Origin: Candidatus Jingweiarchaeum tengchongense
Lineage (GTDB): Archaea > Nanobdellota > Nanobdellia > Jingweiarchaeales > Jingweiarchaeaceae
Reading direction: 5' to 3'
Length of the DNA: 64,000 nucleotides
Assembly: GCA_025920705.1 (NCBI GenBank)
Contig: JAPDLJ010000002.1
Location: forward strand, 1-64,000
Part shown: piece after piece, positions 11,179 to 63,849 of the stretch
How positions within the stretch are numbered: the first letter of the stretch is position 1
How the letters are laid out: every line of letters starts with the position of its first letter
The notes under the pieces: model-generated
Database searches by the model: none
The model's input: only the letters and a program-made list of their open reading frames with translations
Told to the model about the DNA's origin: nothing
Program-made: the position numbers and the translations under genes

Positions 11179-12086
11179 TTTTCTTCTCTTAGCGAATTTA
11201 TTTCTGCTCTGAGTTCAATGATCTGCTTTTCATAATCTCGCATTATTTCATTGAATGTTTTCTCCTCCATCTTTCCCTTGAAAAATTCTTTTTGTACCTC
11301 ATCTTTTTTTCTTTTTATTTGCTCAATTTTTTGCTCCAATTCCCTTATCACTTCTTCTCTATCCGCCTTCGTTTTCTTAATTCTCTGAGTAATTCTTTTT
11401 AAATCTTCACTGAAACTTTTAATATTGATTTGTTTTATTTTTTCACCTGATTTGTACAGAAATTTATTTAATAGTACAATTAGAAGTATGAAGAAAATCA
11501 CTTGTAACATTATCGTAATCACATTCGATTTTCTCTTTAAATCAATCTGTACATGGAAAGGCACATTTTTTTCCAGATTCTTTGCAAAATCGATCACAAT
11601 TTCATTTTCAATCTTTAACCTGTACACAGCTGGATCAATTCGTTCTAATTCATAATCTTTAGGCAGAAAAATCCTGATTGAAAGATTTGAGACGTCTTCA
11701 GTATTCAAGAAAACAAACTCAATTGAATTTACCCCATCCTTTTGTTTTACTATACCCATAAAATTTGCTTTTATGTTGTAGTTAATCTTTTCGCCTTGTT
11801 GTATTGGTTTTGGGAAAAACACAATTATTTTTGAATCATCAACTTCATATCTCATCCTTTCGGATATAAATCCAAGCTTGGTTACTTCCACGTTGCTGAA
11901 TGTTAAGTTGTAAAATGTGATTTCTTGCCTGTCAACTGTTCTCTGCGCAATGAACTCAACTAACAAATCAGCCTGCATATTACCATCTGATATATGTCGC
12001 AGTTCTAGAGCAATCCTACTGTCAGCATGAGCAAGATTTACCAAAAGTAGTGCAAATGAAATGAGTACATAATACCTAATTTTCAT
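11175..12086 (-). CDS. Exported, membrane-anchored coiled-coil protein
   Basis: The 303-residue protein has a signal peptide (MKIRYYVLISFALLLVNLAHA), an extracellular beta-rich domain (about 22-185), one membrane helix (about 192-214) and a cytoplasmic coiled coil rich in Glu/Lys (about 222-303, EELEQKIEQIKRKKDEVQKE). The design suits a sensor or tether linking the surface to the cytoplasm. No family is recognised. It is followed by the DUF1893 gene in an overlapping pair. Confidence 0.7.
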   Translation of the reverse strand: MKIRYYVLISFALLLVNLAHADSRIALELRHISDGNMQADLLVEFIAQRTVDRQEITFYNLTFSNVEVTKLGFISERMRYEVDDSKIIVFFPKPIQQGEKINYNIKANFMGIVKQKDGVNSIEFVFLNTEDVSNLSIRIFLPKDYELERIDPAVYRLKIENEIVIDFAKNLEKNVPFHVQIDLKRKSNVITIMLQVIFFILLIVLLNKFLYKSGEKIKQINIKSFSEDLKRITQRIKKTKADREEVIRELEQKIEQIKRKKDEVQKEFFKGKMEEKTFNEIMRDYEKQIIELRAEINSLREEK

Positions 12087-12149
12087 AATTATTAGATAAT
12101 TTTCTAGAAATAAAAGATTTGTTTTTTGATATTTAAATAAAAAATAAAA

Positions 12150-12205
12150 ATTTCAGATCGCCCGTCATTAATCACAGATCATTGCTCATGAGCTTCATCA
12201 TCAAA
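12150..12205 (-). ncRNA. Box C/D guide sRNA with two 12-nt guides
   Basis: On the minus strand: box C ATGATGA (12195-12201), 12-nt guide AGCTCATGAGCA, box D' ATGA, 3-nt spacer, box C' GTGATTA, 12-nt guide ATGACGGGCGAT, box D CTGA (12153-12156), then a T-rich run. This is the symmetric archaeal C/D sRNA layout. By the D+5 rule the D' guide pairs 11 bases of unspliced elongator tRNA-Met (gene at 32840-32928) and points to C34; the D guide pairs with the universal CGCCCGUC of 16S rRNA and points to C1402 (E. coli numbering). Box D' is a non-consensus AUGA and C' has one mismatch. A TTAAATAA box about 26 bases upstream (near 12228) could drive it divergently from the aMBF1 gene. Confidence 0.85.
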
Positions 12206-12240
12206 ATTTTTATATGTTTAACATTTATTTAAGTCTTTGT

Positions 12241-12696
12241 ATGGTAATTTGCGAACTTTGCGGTAAAGAAGTGGAAAAGACATTAGATGTCAGCATCGAA
12301 GGTTCTGTACTTAGGCTATGCGAGTCATGCTCGAAGTTTGGTAAGGTCATCAAAGAAAATAAAATTGTACCAAAAAAAGTTGAAAAAGAGGAGGAAGAGA
12401 AAGAAATAACAATTGTTGAAAACTATGCTGAAATTTTCAGAGAACTGAGAGAAAAGCTTGGATTAACGCAAGAAGAATTCGCTCGCAAGCTCAATGTGAA
12501 AGAAAGTGAAATAAAGAAAATTGAAAGTTCAAAGCTCGAACCTGACATCAATCTAGCACTAAAAATTGAAAAAATGTTTGGAGTTAAATTAATCGAGGAA
12601 GGATTTAATGTTTTATACAATAAAAGAGAGGAGAAGATAGGCAACTTGACAATCGGGGACGTTATTAAACTTAAGAAAAAGAAGAATTTTCGTTAA
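12241..12696 (+). CDS. aMBF1-type regulator (zinc ribbon plus HTH)
   Basis: From ATG at 12241 the 151-residue protein has an N-terminal zinc ribbon (MVICELCGKEV ... LCESC), a charged linker and a Cro-type HTH (about 57-110, REKLGLTQEEFARKLNVKES), the layout of archaeal multiprotein bridging factor 1 (TIGR00270). In archaea it binds ribosomes or basal factors. An upstream in-frame ATG at 12214 exists, but the TATA-like TTTATATG near 12210 fits a leaderless start at 12241. It is divergent from the box C/D RNA. Confidence 0.9.
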   Translation: MVICELCGKEVEKTLDVSIEGSVLRLCESCSKFGKVIKENKIVPKKVEKEEEEKEITIVENYAEIFRELREKLGLTQEEFARKLNVKESEIKKIESSKLEPDINLALKIEKMFGVKLIEEGFNVLYNKREEKIGNLTIGDVIKLKKKKNFR

Positions 12697-12728: not shown

Positions 12729-13130
12729 ATGAAGTCTCAAGTGGCCATTGAATACATGATATTAATTTCTTTAATTCTACTACTCTTAGTACCTATCTGG
12801 ATCTATCTTATGCTTTCAAGGATACAGCTTCAAGATGATCTTTCAATTTCATACGCCAAAGATGCGGTCAATCGAATAAAAGATGCAGCCGATTTGGTTT
12901 ACATCCAAGGAAGTCCGGCTCGAGTGAAAGTGAATATTTATATTCCAGAAAATGTGCACAGCATAAATTTTACTGATAGGACGATCATCATCAAATTAAG
13001 GACAAGTGCTGGTCTCGTTGACATTCATGCAGAAACATTAGCTAACATTACAGGACAGCTGCCTGTTCAAAGCGGATACTACGAAGTAATTGTTAAATCC
13101 GAAGTGGGTTATGTGAATGTCACGATCTAA
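12729..13130 (+). CDS. Type IV pilin-like protein with class III signal
   Basis: The 133-residue protein begins MKSQVAIEYMILISLILLLL. The QVAIEYMIL segment matches the archaeal QxSxExxxL class III signal with Ala for Ser, cut by a prepilin peptidase after a short basic leader. One hydrophobic helix is followed by a beta-rich head with DADLVYIQGSPARVKV-like features. It opens a run of five overlapping surface genes; its stop overlaps the next start by 14 bases. Confidence 0.8.
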   Translation: MKSQVAIEYMILISLILLLLVPIWIYLMLSRIQLQDDLSISYAKDAVNRIKDAADLVYIQGSPARVKVNIYIPENVHSINFTDRTIIIKLRTSAGLVDIHAETLANITGQLPVQSGYYEVIVKSEVGYVNVTI

Positions 13131-13509
13131 GTCTCAAATAATCGCGGAAACGCTTTTTGTATATGCAATCTTATTTGCATTTTCAATGATCATGATAATC
13201 TACATATTCGATCAAAATACACAAATGTTGGAAGAAAGAAAAAGGGCAGAAGCAAATAGAATTTCTTCAGATATTGTGGATGCAATAAATACAGCTGTGA
13301 TTGAGGGTGATGGCTTCTCAATTACCTTCACAACACCACCAGACATATTGGGGACGAACTACACGCTAAACATCGATGATGGGGCATTATTGGTTGAATG
13401 GAGCAATCATACGTTAAGTAAAACAATTCTCACCAAGAATGTGTATGGTACATTAAAAAAAGGCACAAATACTGTGAGAAATGAAAATGGGCAGATTTTT
13501 ATTGAATAA
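13117..13509 (+). CDS. Pilin-like protein
   Basis: The 130-residue protein has a short basic leader MSRSK followed by SQIIAETLFVYAILFAFSMI, a pilin-type hydrophobic segment with Glu at the usual +5 position, then a small head domain. It overlaps both neighbours (14 bases upstream, 29 downstream), so the genes are made together. Probably a minor pilin. Confidence 0.72.
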   Translation: MSRSKSQIIAETLFVYAILFAFSMIMIIYIFDQNTQMLEERKRAEANRISSDIVDAINTAVIEGDGFSITFTTPPDILGTNYTLNIDDGALLVEWSNHTLSKTILTKNVYGTLKKGTNTVRNENGQIFIE

Positions 13510-14014
13510 AAAAGCACAAGTATTATCTGCTGATTTAGTGGTAAGCATTTTCATATTCACAATTATCATCTCTTTGTTTTTTATTTTTTGGAGAAATGTA
13601 TATAACAACCTGACAATGCAGGAAAAGTTTTTAGAATTACAATATTCGGCAATAAGAATCTCAAATATGCTCGTGAAGACAACCGGTTATCCAAGCAATT
13701 GGAATTCAACCAATGTTGTTCAGATTGGGCTTGCATCAGAGGCAAATGTACTCTCAATTGAAAAGTTAAGAGTTTTCTTGGATATTAATTACGCTGAAAT
13801 CAAGAGAATAATGAAAATAAGTGAGGATTTTAGGGTAAGAGTGAAATACAGAAATGGTAGTACGATTTTGGATAATCTTGGCTTGCCATTAGAAAAGGGA
13901 TTGGAACCATCTCCAAGCGCCAAGATAATCGTTCCCATAGAAAGACCATGTCTATTAAAATTAGAAAATGTAACTGTAATTTGTATCTTTGAGTTTAAGT
14001 TGTGGTCAACATGA
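13481..14014 (+). CDS. Pilin-like membrane protein
   Basis: The 177-residue protein starts MKMGRFLLNKKAQVLSADL and continues into VVSIFIFTIIISLFFIF, a pilin-like leader and helix with Asp in place of the usual Glu. The rest is a soluble extracellular domain with no recognised family. It overlaps the previous gene by 29 bases in another frame and its stop overlaps the VWA adhesin start as ATGA. Confidence 0.68.
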   Translation: MKMGRFLLNKKAQVLSADLVVSIFIFTIIISLFFIFWRNVYNNLTMQEKFLELQYSAIRISNMLVKTTGYPSNWNSTNVVQIGLASEANVLSIEKLRVFLDINYAEIKRIMKISEDFRVRVKYRNGSTILDNLGLPLEKGLEPSPSAKIIVPIERPCLLKLENVTVICIFEFKLWST

Positions 14015-16779
14015 AAAAAGGTTTTGTAATTCCACTTGATATGACAATCGCGATTATCATATTACTATTTACCTCAACCATATTCACATTCTTTCAGTAT
14101 GGGCTTGAGACACCGGGAATAATCTATGAGCTTTCATATCAAAGGGCTGAAGATACGCTCACGATCTTGCAAAAAACAAAGATTGCTTATGTAACAGATG
14201 ATCCCGTCGTAACACAATACATCAATCAAGGGATGATCACAGAAGAAGACATGAATAAAACGATATTGGACTTGATTGGTACATTTTGGTCCGAGGGAAA
14301 GGTTGATTTGGCCGTCAATTTATCAAAGAGTATTTTTGATTCACTATTACCACCAGAAGTTGGTTACGAAATTGTAATAGGGAACGACACTATTTATAGT
14401 CGACCAGGTGTATTGGGTAGTATTTTCAGAGTGAGGACAGTTGTCTCTGGTTTCAAAACCGGAGAAGCACCACTAGGTTGCATCGCAAGCGCCTACATAG
14501 AAAAAATTAAAGGAAAACGAACCGCATCTTACTATTACTTTGGTGGTTTTACTGGTCAGGGAAATTTAACCTTTTATATTTATGATATTCCAAGCGATGC
14601 AATCATAGAAAGCATCTATCTAGAACTCAGCACCGTGGCAAATGCCACTTTATACATAAATGGAAATTTTTGTCAATCATTAAATAAGAAATATCCAAAT
14701 TACACCGTTGAAAATTGGACAATATTTGATCAAAATTGCATCAATAACATCAGCAAGGGAGTGGCAAACCTATTCACCATTAACTTCTCTTCCCCAGTTA
14801 CGAGTGCATACATTGGTGGCGGTTACATAAAGATCACGTATGATACTGCACAGATGAATGTTCCTCTGGGCAATGTGATGCAATACAACTTCACAGGAAT
14901 TTCTGGTGTTATCAACCTGTATGATTCATTTTATATTCCAGGAAATTTAACATCGATGGAGATGCATTTGGAATTTTTAAGTAACTATTCAACTTTTTTC
15001 AATATTGGTAACAAAACAATTTTTGAGAATAATGGAAGTAATACTACACAAATCATTGATTTCAATGATTCGTATCTATCACAAATTTTGAATTACAGTG
15101 AGATAAGCTTGGAAACAATTCCATTGCGCTTCGGTATGAAGGCATTTAACATCACGATTCAACAGAATGCTGATGTCATTTTGATCACAGATTTATCTGG
15201 AAGTATGGATTGGAGATTAGATAGCGAAAATACAGGAATAGCCAGAAATTGTACTGATCCTTTATTGAATAGTTCAAATACAAAAAGAATAAGCTTAGCA
15301 AAATGTTTGGACAAGGAATTCGTTGATATCATATTAAATACTTCTGGAAATAGGGTTGGATTGGTTGGATTTTATAGTGACAATTCACCACCATACAAAG
15401 GAAGAACAATCATTCACGATTTATCCGATAATAAGACAAGCTTATACAATGCAATCGACAGCTATTTTATCCAGGGTGGAACATGTATCTGCTGTGGTAT
15501 AAACAGGGCTTATAACATTTTGAGTGCGCAGAGCAATGCATCAAGGAAAAAATTCATCGTTGTAATGTCAGATGGAATACCAACACACCAATGTGGCTCA
15601 AGTGGTACAGATGAGTGTCAAGGGATTAGAGATGGTTCTCCGGCAAATGAGGGTTTGTGGTTAGGTTGGGGGGCCGGATGTTATGGTGGAGGAGACGATT
15701 GTAATACGACCGATTGCTTGTGTGCGATGCAAAATGCGAATTGGTCTTCATGCAGGTCATACAATAATTTGAATGCGACCGTATATTCAATTGGATTCGG
15801 ACCTGTTGCAAGCTGTTGGAGTGCAAATTGGACATTGAGATCAATTGCTGATTGTGGACATGGCAGTTACTATGCAAGCAGCGATGCAGATGAACTCAAA
15901 CAAATTTACAGAAGTATCGCAGAATCGATCTTGAATGCATCTTACACCACACAATTGATAGAGGTAACAAATGTAACAAACACAATATTATATCCATCTT
16001 CTTACATTAAATTTAATTACACACCCATTGTACCGCAATATGGTTACTCTGAAATATCTATAAAAGGTGATACAAAACCTTTCAGCGGTTGCAATGGAAG
16101 TTTTTTTGTTCCAGGTCAATTACAAATTGATGACGTTCAAGTTACATCTTACTCATTTGATTATTGGACGGATAAAATATTTGTGAATAATAGCATTACA
16201 AATGGTAGTTTGATCAATGTCTTTAATCTTTCAAAGTTTGGTAGTGATTATAAAAAACTTGGTGATCCATATGCGATCAAATTTCCAGCTTACTTCATTG
16301 GATCAAACGAGACTAATTACATTAACATTCTGCTTGCCCTGAGTCCGACAAATCAAAGCACAAATTGTTCAGCTGGTGATAGGGTCATTTACACTGGTAG
16401 AATTAGAACACCAATTATCTACTCAAATGTCCTACCATTTTGCAAAGGAAGCAATGTGAGCGTTTGCTTTGATAAAGATCACGATGGCTATGCAGATGGT
16501 TGTTCATACATTGCAATCGGTAAAAATCTTCCGAATTTCAATGCCACACCAAAAACCGTGGAGGATTTGAATCCAAATGAAAACGCAGTAGATCAAGTTT
16601 TCCTACAACTTTTAGATGCATTAAACTTTGTTACAATACCAGCGAACACTGGTAGATCAGGAAATTTCACGAATCCGATTGACATAGAACTCGTTTCGGA
16701 ACTGAATTTTGATACTGTTGATACAGCAAACGTACCATCTCTTTGGCAACCCGTATCAATTGAGGTGAGAATTTCATGA
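14011..16779 (+). CDS. Large surface protein with VWA (MIDAS) domain
   Basis: From ATG at 14011 (ATGA overlap) the 922-residue protein has a pilin-like N-terminal anchor (KKGFVIPLDMTIAIIILLF), beta-sandwich regions rich in Asn/Thr and likely glycosylated, and a von Willebrand A domain: VILITDLSGSMDW (MIDAS DxSxS, about 389-401) and the later VVMSDGIPTH. Near the C-terminus a calcium-type loop CFDKDHDGYADGC occurs. A cysteine cluster CICCG lies inside the VWA domain. It is probably a metal-dependent adhesin carried at a pilus tip or on the cell surface, by analogy with pilus-tip VWA adhesins. Confidence 0.82.
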   Translation: MKKGFVIPLDMTIAIIILLFTSTIFTFFQYGLETPGIIYELSYQRAEDTLTILQKTKIAYVTDDPVVTQYINQGMITEEDMNKTILDLIGTFWSEGKVDLAVNLSKSIFDSLLPPEVGYEIVIGNDTIYSRPGVLGSIFRVRTVVSGFKTGEAPLGCIASAYIEKIKGKRTASYYYFGGFTGQGNLTFYIYDIPSDAIIESIYLELSTVANATLYINGNFCQSLNKKYPNYTVENWTIFDQNCINNISKGVANLFTINFSSPVTSAYIGGGYIKITYDTAQMNVPLGNVMQYNFTGISGVINLYDSFYIPGNLTSMEMHLEFLSNYSTFFNIGNKTIFENNGSNTTQIIDFNDSYLSQILNYSEISLETIPLRFGMKAFNITIQQNADVILITDLSGSMDWRLDSENTGIARNCTDPLLNSSNTKRISLAKCLDKEFVDIILNTSGNRVGLVGFYSDNSPPYKGRTIIHDLSDNKTSLYNAIDSYFIQGGTCICCGINRAYNILSAQSNASRKKFIVVMSDGIPTHQCGSSGTDECQGIRDGSPANEGLWLGWGAGCYGGGDDCNTTDCLCAMQNANWSSCRSYNNLNATVYSIGFGPVASCWSANWTLRSIADCGHGSYYASSDADELKQIYRSIAESILNASYTTQLIEVTNVTNTILYPSSYIKFNYTPIVPQYGYSEISIKGDTKPFSGCNGSFFVPGQLQIDDVQVTSYSFDYWTDKIFVNNSITNGSLINVFNLSKFGSDYKKLGDPYAIKFPAYFIGSNETNYINILLALSPTNQSTNCSAGDRVIYTGRIRTPIIYSNVLPFCKGSNVSVCFDKDHDGYADGCSYIAIGKNLPNFNATPKTVEDLNPNENAVDQVFLQLLDALNFVTIPANTGRSGNFTNPIDIELVSELNFDTVDTANVPSLWQPVSIEVRIS

Positions 16780-32808: not shown

Positions 32809-32839
32809 AAGTAAATAATAATTTATAAAAATTTAAATC

Positions 32840-32928
32840 TGCCTGGGGTGGGATTTGAACCCACGATTGCAGCGTATCTTAGCAAAGCTCATGAGCGCTG
32901 CGTTCTAGCCAGACTAAACTACCCAGGC
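32840..32928 (-). tRNA. Elongator tRNA-Met (CAU) with 14-nt intron
   Basis: Acceptor GCCUGGG/CCCAGGC with A73; D-stem GUUU/GAAC; anticodon stem CAGCG/CGCUG; loop CUCAUG, a 14-base intron (32876-32889) at 37/38, then A38. The G1:C72 pair and no run of three G:C pairs in the anticodon stem make it an elongator rather than initiator tRNA. Eleven bases spanning positions 31-37 and the first four intron bases are complementary to the D' guide of the box C/D RNA at 12150-12205. Confidence 0.95.
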
Positions 32929-32929
32929 A

Positions 32930-63627: not shown

Positions 63628-63837
63628 GGGCCCGTAGCTCAGTCTGGAAGAGCATCTGTTGGAGGCAGAGAAAAATGTTTAATACATGTATTATTCCAAT
63701 TACACTTAAGATAAATTTCTTCTCTTCTCCATTCTTCAATCATTCTCTCATTCCTTCTCCAATTTCATTCTCAATTTCTCTGCCTTCAGATGTTGCTTTT
63801 AACCAGGTGGTCGCGGGTTCAAATCCCGTCGGGCCCA
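63628..63837 (+). tRNA. tRNA-Lys (UUU) with 136-nt intron at position 30/31
   Basis: Exon 1 is 63628-63658 (GGGCCCGUAGCUCAG ... AUCUG, positions 1-30) and exon 2 is 63795-63837 (GCUUUUAACCAGG..., positions 31-73). Joined, they give acceptor GGGCCCG/CGGGCCC, anticodon stem UCUGG/CCAGG, loop CUUUUAA (anticodon UUU) and T-arm GCGGG/CCCGU. The splice sites lie in a textbook motif: GAG/CUU, bulge UU^G, CAUC/GAUG, bulge UG^U, then a 12-bp intron helix starting UGGAGGCAGAGA. The intron is pyrimidine-rich and unusually long. Confidence 0.93.
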
Positions 63838-63849
63838 CTAGGTGAGAAA

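Follow-up and report, generated by a model that had tools for sequence, protein, structure and literature searches.

A dual-guide box C/D sRNA that very probably directs 2'-O-methylation to the wobble base of elongator tRNA-Met and to C1402 of 16S rRNA in an archaeal genome

A small RNA gene in the window, the 64,000-nucleotide stretch of Candidatus Jingweiarchaeum tengchongense DNA analysed here, very probably guides one and the same methylation to both the wobble base of tRNA-Met and a base of the ribosomal P site. The reading we favour, at a probability of about 0.83, is that of a dual-guide box C/D sRNA in which the D' guide specifies 2'-O-methylation of C34 in the precursor of tRNA-Met, while the D guide specifies that of C1402 in 16S rRNA. 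In the proposed mechanism, the sRNA would be transcribed and assembled into a ribonucleoprotein with L7Ae, Nop5 and fibrillarin. The D' guide would then direct methylation of C34 in the intron-containing elongator tRNA-Met precursor, and the D guide that of 16S C1402. Methylation of C34 would precede splicing, as was concluded for the pre-tRNA-Met guides of other archaea (PMC2584109). A fibrillarin gene (E=1.4e-90) adjoins a Nop5 gene in the source genome of the window.

The minus strand from 12201 to 12153 reads ATGATGA AGCTCATGAGCA ATGA TCT GTGATTA ATGACGGGCGAT CTGA and continues into a T-rich tail. The features of the locus and of the predicted tRNA target are as follows.

12145..12210, minus strand: box C/D sRNA gene, model extent with a weak terminal stem (cmsearch, methanogen-only model R2)
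12195..12201, minus strand: box C, ATGATGA (sequence; TGATGA invariant in alignment A1)
12183..12194, minus strand: D' guide AGCTCATGAGCA, predicted target C34 of elongator pre-tRNA-Met (11 contiguous Watson-Crick pairs)
12179..12182, minus strand: box D', ATGA (sequence)
12176..12178, minus strand: D'-C' spacer TCT (sequence; drifts freely among homologues)
12169..12175, minus strand: box C', GTGATTA (sequence; methanogen form RTGATGA)
12157..12168, minus strand: D guide ATGACGGGCGAT, predicted target 16S C1402 (9 contiguous Watson-Crick pairs with the genome's own 16S)
12153..12156, minus strand: box D, CTGA (sequence)
12225..12232, minus strand: candidate TATA element of archaeal type (CTTAAATA), roughly 24-31 nt 5' of box C (sequence only)
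32839..32929, minus strand: elongator tRNA-Met gene, predicted target of the D' guide, with C34 at 32893 and a 14-nt intron (32889-32876) at 37/38 (ARAGORN, Rfam, sequence)

The C and D boxes fit the archaeal box C/D sRNA forms (RUGAUGA, CUGA). The D' and C' boxes are slightly degenerate and separated by a short spacer, whereas the methanogen versions are canonical. Each of the two 12-nt guides places its target, C34 or C1402, at the N+5 position, and the terminal stem is present but broken by two U.U mismatches. The first-pass annotation had described these boxes, guides and spacer on the minus strand, and the description was borne out: a strict scan for C, D, C' and D' boxes over both strands of the 64 kb returned this locus as its single match. 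Order-1 Markov sequences of the same dinucleotide make-up gave 0.00 strict and 0.03 looser C/D matches per 64 kb. The Rfam sR families did not reach their gathering cut-offs; the best score was 28.4 for the window copy (sR2, cut-off 42), and a Methanobrevibacter copy scored 38.4 (sR1, cut-off 45). On one side of the locus is a divergent gene of helix-turn-helix (MBF1-like) type, starting near 12241, and on the other a 303-aa gene that starts at 12086. Farther along, 12729-16779 encodes several small class III signal peptide-like proteins in a row and one protein of 925 aa containing a von Willebrand-like stretch; together they recall an archaeal pilus or surface cluster.

The D' guide pairs at 11 of its 12 positions with the tRNA-Met of the window (GCTCATGAGCT), with C34 at N+5. 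Its target, GCTCATG|AGCT, comprises seven exon and four intron bases. The guide spans the exon-intron junction, and the substrate it acts on in the cell is therefore probably the unspliced elongator tRNA-Met precursor. The calculated duplex is -20.2 kcal/mol with the precursor and -17.0 kcal/mol with the spliced, mature form. The earlier assignment of this guide to C34 stands, with a correction as to its partner, the intron-containing precursor. The initiator tRNA-Met (L275, GGG-CTCATAA-CCC) was considered as a target and rejected, as it does not fit the guide and reaches only -8.7 kcal/mol. This initiator gene, at L275 51-116 (G000:C1:205750-205815), was missed by ARAGORN; its 5' half is lengthened by additional sequence, perhaps an intron located outside the anticodon loop. 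Two further tRNA observations concern the window itself. Position 37 of the tRNA-Met at 32839-32929 is apparently G, where t6A37 is expected in an AUG-reading tRNA, and ARAGORN proposes a candidate tRNA-Ser(GGA) with a 121-nt intron at 63628-63838.

The D' guide and the tRNA-Met intron, compared as sequences, change together between lineages. In the window, the tRNA reads (G)CTCATG|AGCT and the guide AGCTCATGAG / AGCTCATGAGC; in the phylum containing Methanobrevibacter, an intron-bearing tRNA-Met reading CTCATA|GGGT (GGCTCATA|GGGT) is matched by the guide ACCCTATGAG / ACCCTATGAGC. The matched pairs reach -20.2 (window) and -21.3 kcal/mol (methanogen), compared with -13.3 and -9.9 kcal/mol when guides and tRNAs are swapped. 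The window guide is palindromic and, taken alone, could be taken for a stretch copied from the tRNA; the guide of the methanogens lacks this symmetry, which identifies the guide as antisense.

The 16S rRNA of the same genome (L001) reads CACACACCGCCCGTCACGCC, with the target stretch ACCGCCCGTCAC. Guide positions 3-11 of the D guide pair unbroken with C1400-A1408, and position 1 is also paired, so that N+5 falls on C1402; the mismatches are at position 2 (A.C1399) and position 12, and the duplex is -19.0 kcal/mol. Both guide-target pairs therefore hold against the genome's own 16S and tRNA-Met, although the D guide match proposed in the first-pass annotation shrinks to a core of 9 bp, not 12. 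An off-target scan of the genome's own 16S and 23S found no better Watson-Crick site, the C1402 site being the longest Watson-Crick run. An alternative at 16S 544 has 10 pairs, two of them G.U, and is 4-8 kcal/mol weaker. In most relatives the D guide contains a G.U pair, which falls at G1405 in nearly all. As a match within a single genome, this pairing is modest, since 8 of 371 window 12-mers preceding CTGA (about 2%) form 9 or more contiguous pairs with 16S, and the argument therefore rests on conservation.

The key search covered 152 genomes of the Methanobrevibacter-containing phylum with a pattern whose sole requirements were a C box and the 16S guide. The D' region was left free, which makes the search an unbiased test of the linkage between the guides. 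A match was found in 139 genomes, usually once per genome, while the reversed control pattern gave zero matches. All of these matches carry a tRNA-Met C34 guide at D', of the form (A/T)CCCTATGAGC(T/A/G), and the guide is ACCCTATGAGCT in 88 of 94 distinct methanogen copies. The D guide core TGATGGGCG is identical across the matched genomes; GAYGGGCG was built into the pattern, and the neighbouring 5' T and 3' A are also nearly fixed. C1402 lies at N+5 in every relative (the methanogen 16S target was assumed to be the universal CGCCCGUC), and box D CTGA is intact in nearly all. The D'-C' spacer, on the other hand, occurs in 20 forms among methanogen copies, varying in length and sequence, and all 8 pairs of the terminal stem have changed on both sides, with a covariation of 0.486 against 0.228 for shuffled alignments (0/500). 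Conservation of the guides in relatives had been set beforehand as a test, and the outcome is that the guides are kept while spacers and stem sequences drift.

A pattern demanding both guides, which by itself is no proof of linkage, matched dozens of loci in Methanobrevibacter, Methanosphaera, Methanovirga and other Methanobacteriaceae among named genomes; its bacterial matches were discarded as chance, as they are without C' and D boxes. In Methanobrevibacter (L052, 1204-2546), the sRNA lies just 3' of a proteasomal AAA ATPase (PAN-like) gene, and several other methanogen copies have upstream sequence similar to this context. The homologue survey covered this phylum, the class of the window's genome and a set of named genomes outside Halobacteriota, Thermoproteota, Asgard and Thermococci.

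Within the class of the window, two Candidatus Parvarchaeota metagenome-assembled genomes (G003, G016) carry ATGATGA AGCTCATGAGCA CTGA ... ATGARGA ..GATGGGCGGA CAGA, with a GGTA/TACC closing stem, both guides kept and the spacers diverged. No tRNA-Met target was found in these two incomplete assemblies, and the 16S of G016 does not adjoin its 23S. A covariance model (R2) built from alignment A2, which holds 37 methanogen sequences only, recovers the copy in the window with a score of 52.6 bits (E=4.7e-13, cmsearch) and the two relatives at E about 1e-8. The proposal that one RNA serves both targets is thus supported by the joint presence of the guides, each with its N+5 placement unchanged, in two further genomes of the same class and in 139 of the 152 genomes of the methanogen phylum, a phylum other than that of the window.

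Models R2 and R1 also find related RNAs in the DPANN families f6 and f12, in which the D guide fits C1402 and the D' guide is different. Such D guides are TGATGGGCG in G022, GATGGGCG in G036 and G065, and a shorter GATGGGC in genus g6. The C1402 guide seems to be a more widespread module in this class, with changing D' partners, and shared unpaired guide bases weakly hint at a common origin of the DPANN and methanogen copies. Loci in f6 genomes (L303-L306, L308, L309, L315) have a conserved C/D sRNA whose D guide TTGATGGGCAAA forms 8 pairs around 16S C1402 and whose D' guide TGGATCAACGAT is similar to the complement of GUUGAUCC, a conserved stretch close to the 5' end of 16S. The G022 sRNA (L172 / L307) combines its C1402 D guide (CTGATGGGCGAA) with the D' guide GTCCAGCAGGAA. 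Several other candidates were set aside: matches in G132 and G378 look like chance, as do those at L312-L314 and L316-L318, which score under 25 bits; a pattern of C box and C34 guide gave about one chance-like match per four genomes of the class; and BLASTN of the locus against relatives returned mostly A+T-rich noise, with real matches only in G003 and G016.

These observations bear on three other explanations. It is unlikely that the D guide, next to a D' guide methylating tRNA-Met C34, acts mainly as a chaperone or blocker at helix 44 of 16S rRNA and leaves C1402 unmethylated. The duplex of only 9 pairs, the mismatch at position 2 and the recurrent G.U at G1405 would suit such a role, but the exact placement of C1402 at N+5 and the preservation of box D among relatives speak for a methylation guide, and the nucleotide is 2'-O-methylated in bacteria and eukaryotes (PMC11542601). 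Still less credible is an sRNA that serves tRNA-Met alone, its D guide having another RNA target and matching C1402 by coincidence. The tRNA guides of Pyrobaculum are reported to be single-guide (PMC7994747), and both the chance level of 16S matches and the site at 16S 544 lend this some weight. Against it stand the weaker energy of that site, the guide core, which is shared by 139 genomes and fits the invariant 16S target in its C version as well as its U version, and the recurrence of C1402 guides with different D' partners in other DPANN families.

A chance motif or a functionless pseudogene is very improbable, being contradicted by the conservation, the covariation and the uniqueness of the locus in the window. 

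It is rather likely, though less so than the dual-guide reading itself, that one RNA has long coupled wobble methylation of tRNA-Met to P-site methylation at 16S C1402 in most of one methanogen phylum and in some DPANN archaea. If C1402 is ribose-methylated by the sRNA, archaea would join bacteria and eukaryotes in making this mark. It would then be common to the three domains, made by a protein in bacteria and through a guide RNA in the other two. The same sRNA would also set Cm34 on the AUG-reading elongator tRNA, so that the reading of AUG would be coupled on the tRNA and on the ribosome. Cm34 is described as fixing C34 on AUG and keeping it off AUA (PMC7668247), and the two marks may act jointly on AUG/AUA fidelity or on start-site choice.

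Guides for Cm34 of elongator tRNA-Met are known as sR49 in Pyrococcus and sR-tMet in haloarchaea (PMC2584109, PMC4033218). The window sRNA resembles them as a box C/D RNA encoded outside the tRNA gene that pairs with anticodon loop and intron and places C34 at N+5, but probably differs in its second guide, predicted to target 16S C1402. The sR-tMet RNA has an unusual C'/D' motif. In Haloferax 16S rRNA, an unidentified modification is reported at C1404 and C1402 is not listed (PMC2584109); the C1402 mark is therefore not general in archaea. In a partial literature search that included few subscription papers, neither a C1402 guide in archaea nor this conserved combination of a tRNA and an rRNA target was found to have been reported.

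In bacteria, the ribose of 16S C1402 is methylated by RsmI (PMC5053481). The nucleotide and the mark are those predicted for the window sRNA, but RsmI is a stand-alone protein that uses no guide RNA. Eukaryotic snoRNAs of the U43 / snR70 (SNORD43) type guide 18S Cm1703 / Cm1639 and are, like the window D guide, C/D guides for the equivalent of E. coli C1402; to our knowledge, none of them also carries a guide for tRNA-Met. The equivalent Cm occurs in yeast, human and plant 18S rRNA, with the C/D snoRNA AtU43 guiding Cm1645 in Arabidopsis, and in the table of this source the archaeal column is blank at this site (PMC11542601).

Among archaeal sRNAs, those of Pyrobaculum that target tRNAs are reviewed as using one guide, the other being without a target (PMC7994747). 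In the accessible part of a survey of seven archaeal species, the helix 44 predictions named are only the equivalents of A1408 and G1494 (PMC4644070). The double-guide sRNAs treated there share with the window sRNA its architecture, the N+5 rule and the use of both guides, but usually address two sites in rRNA that lie no more than about 100 nt apart, whereas the window sRNA would address one tRNA site and one rRNA site.
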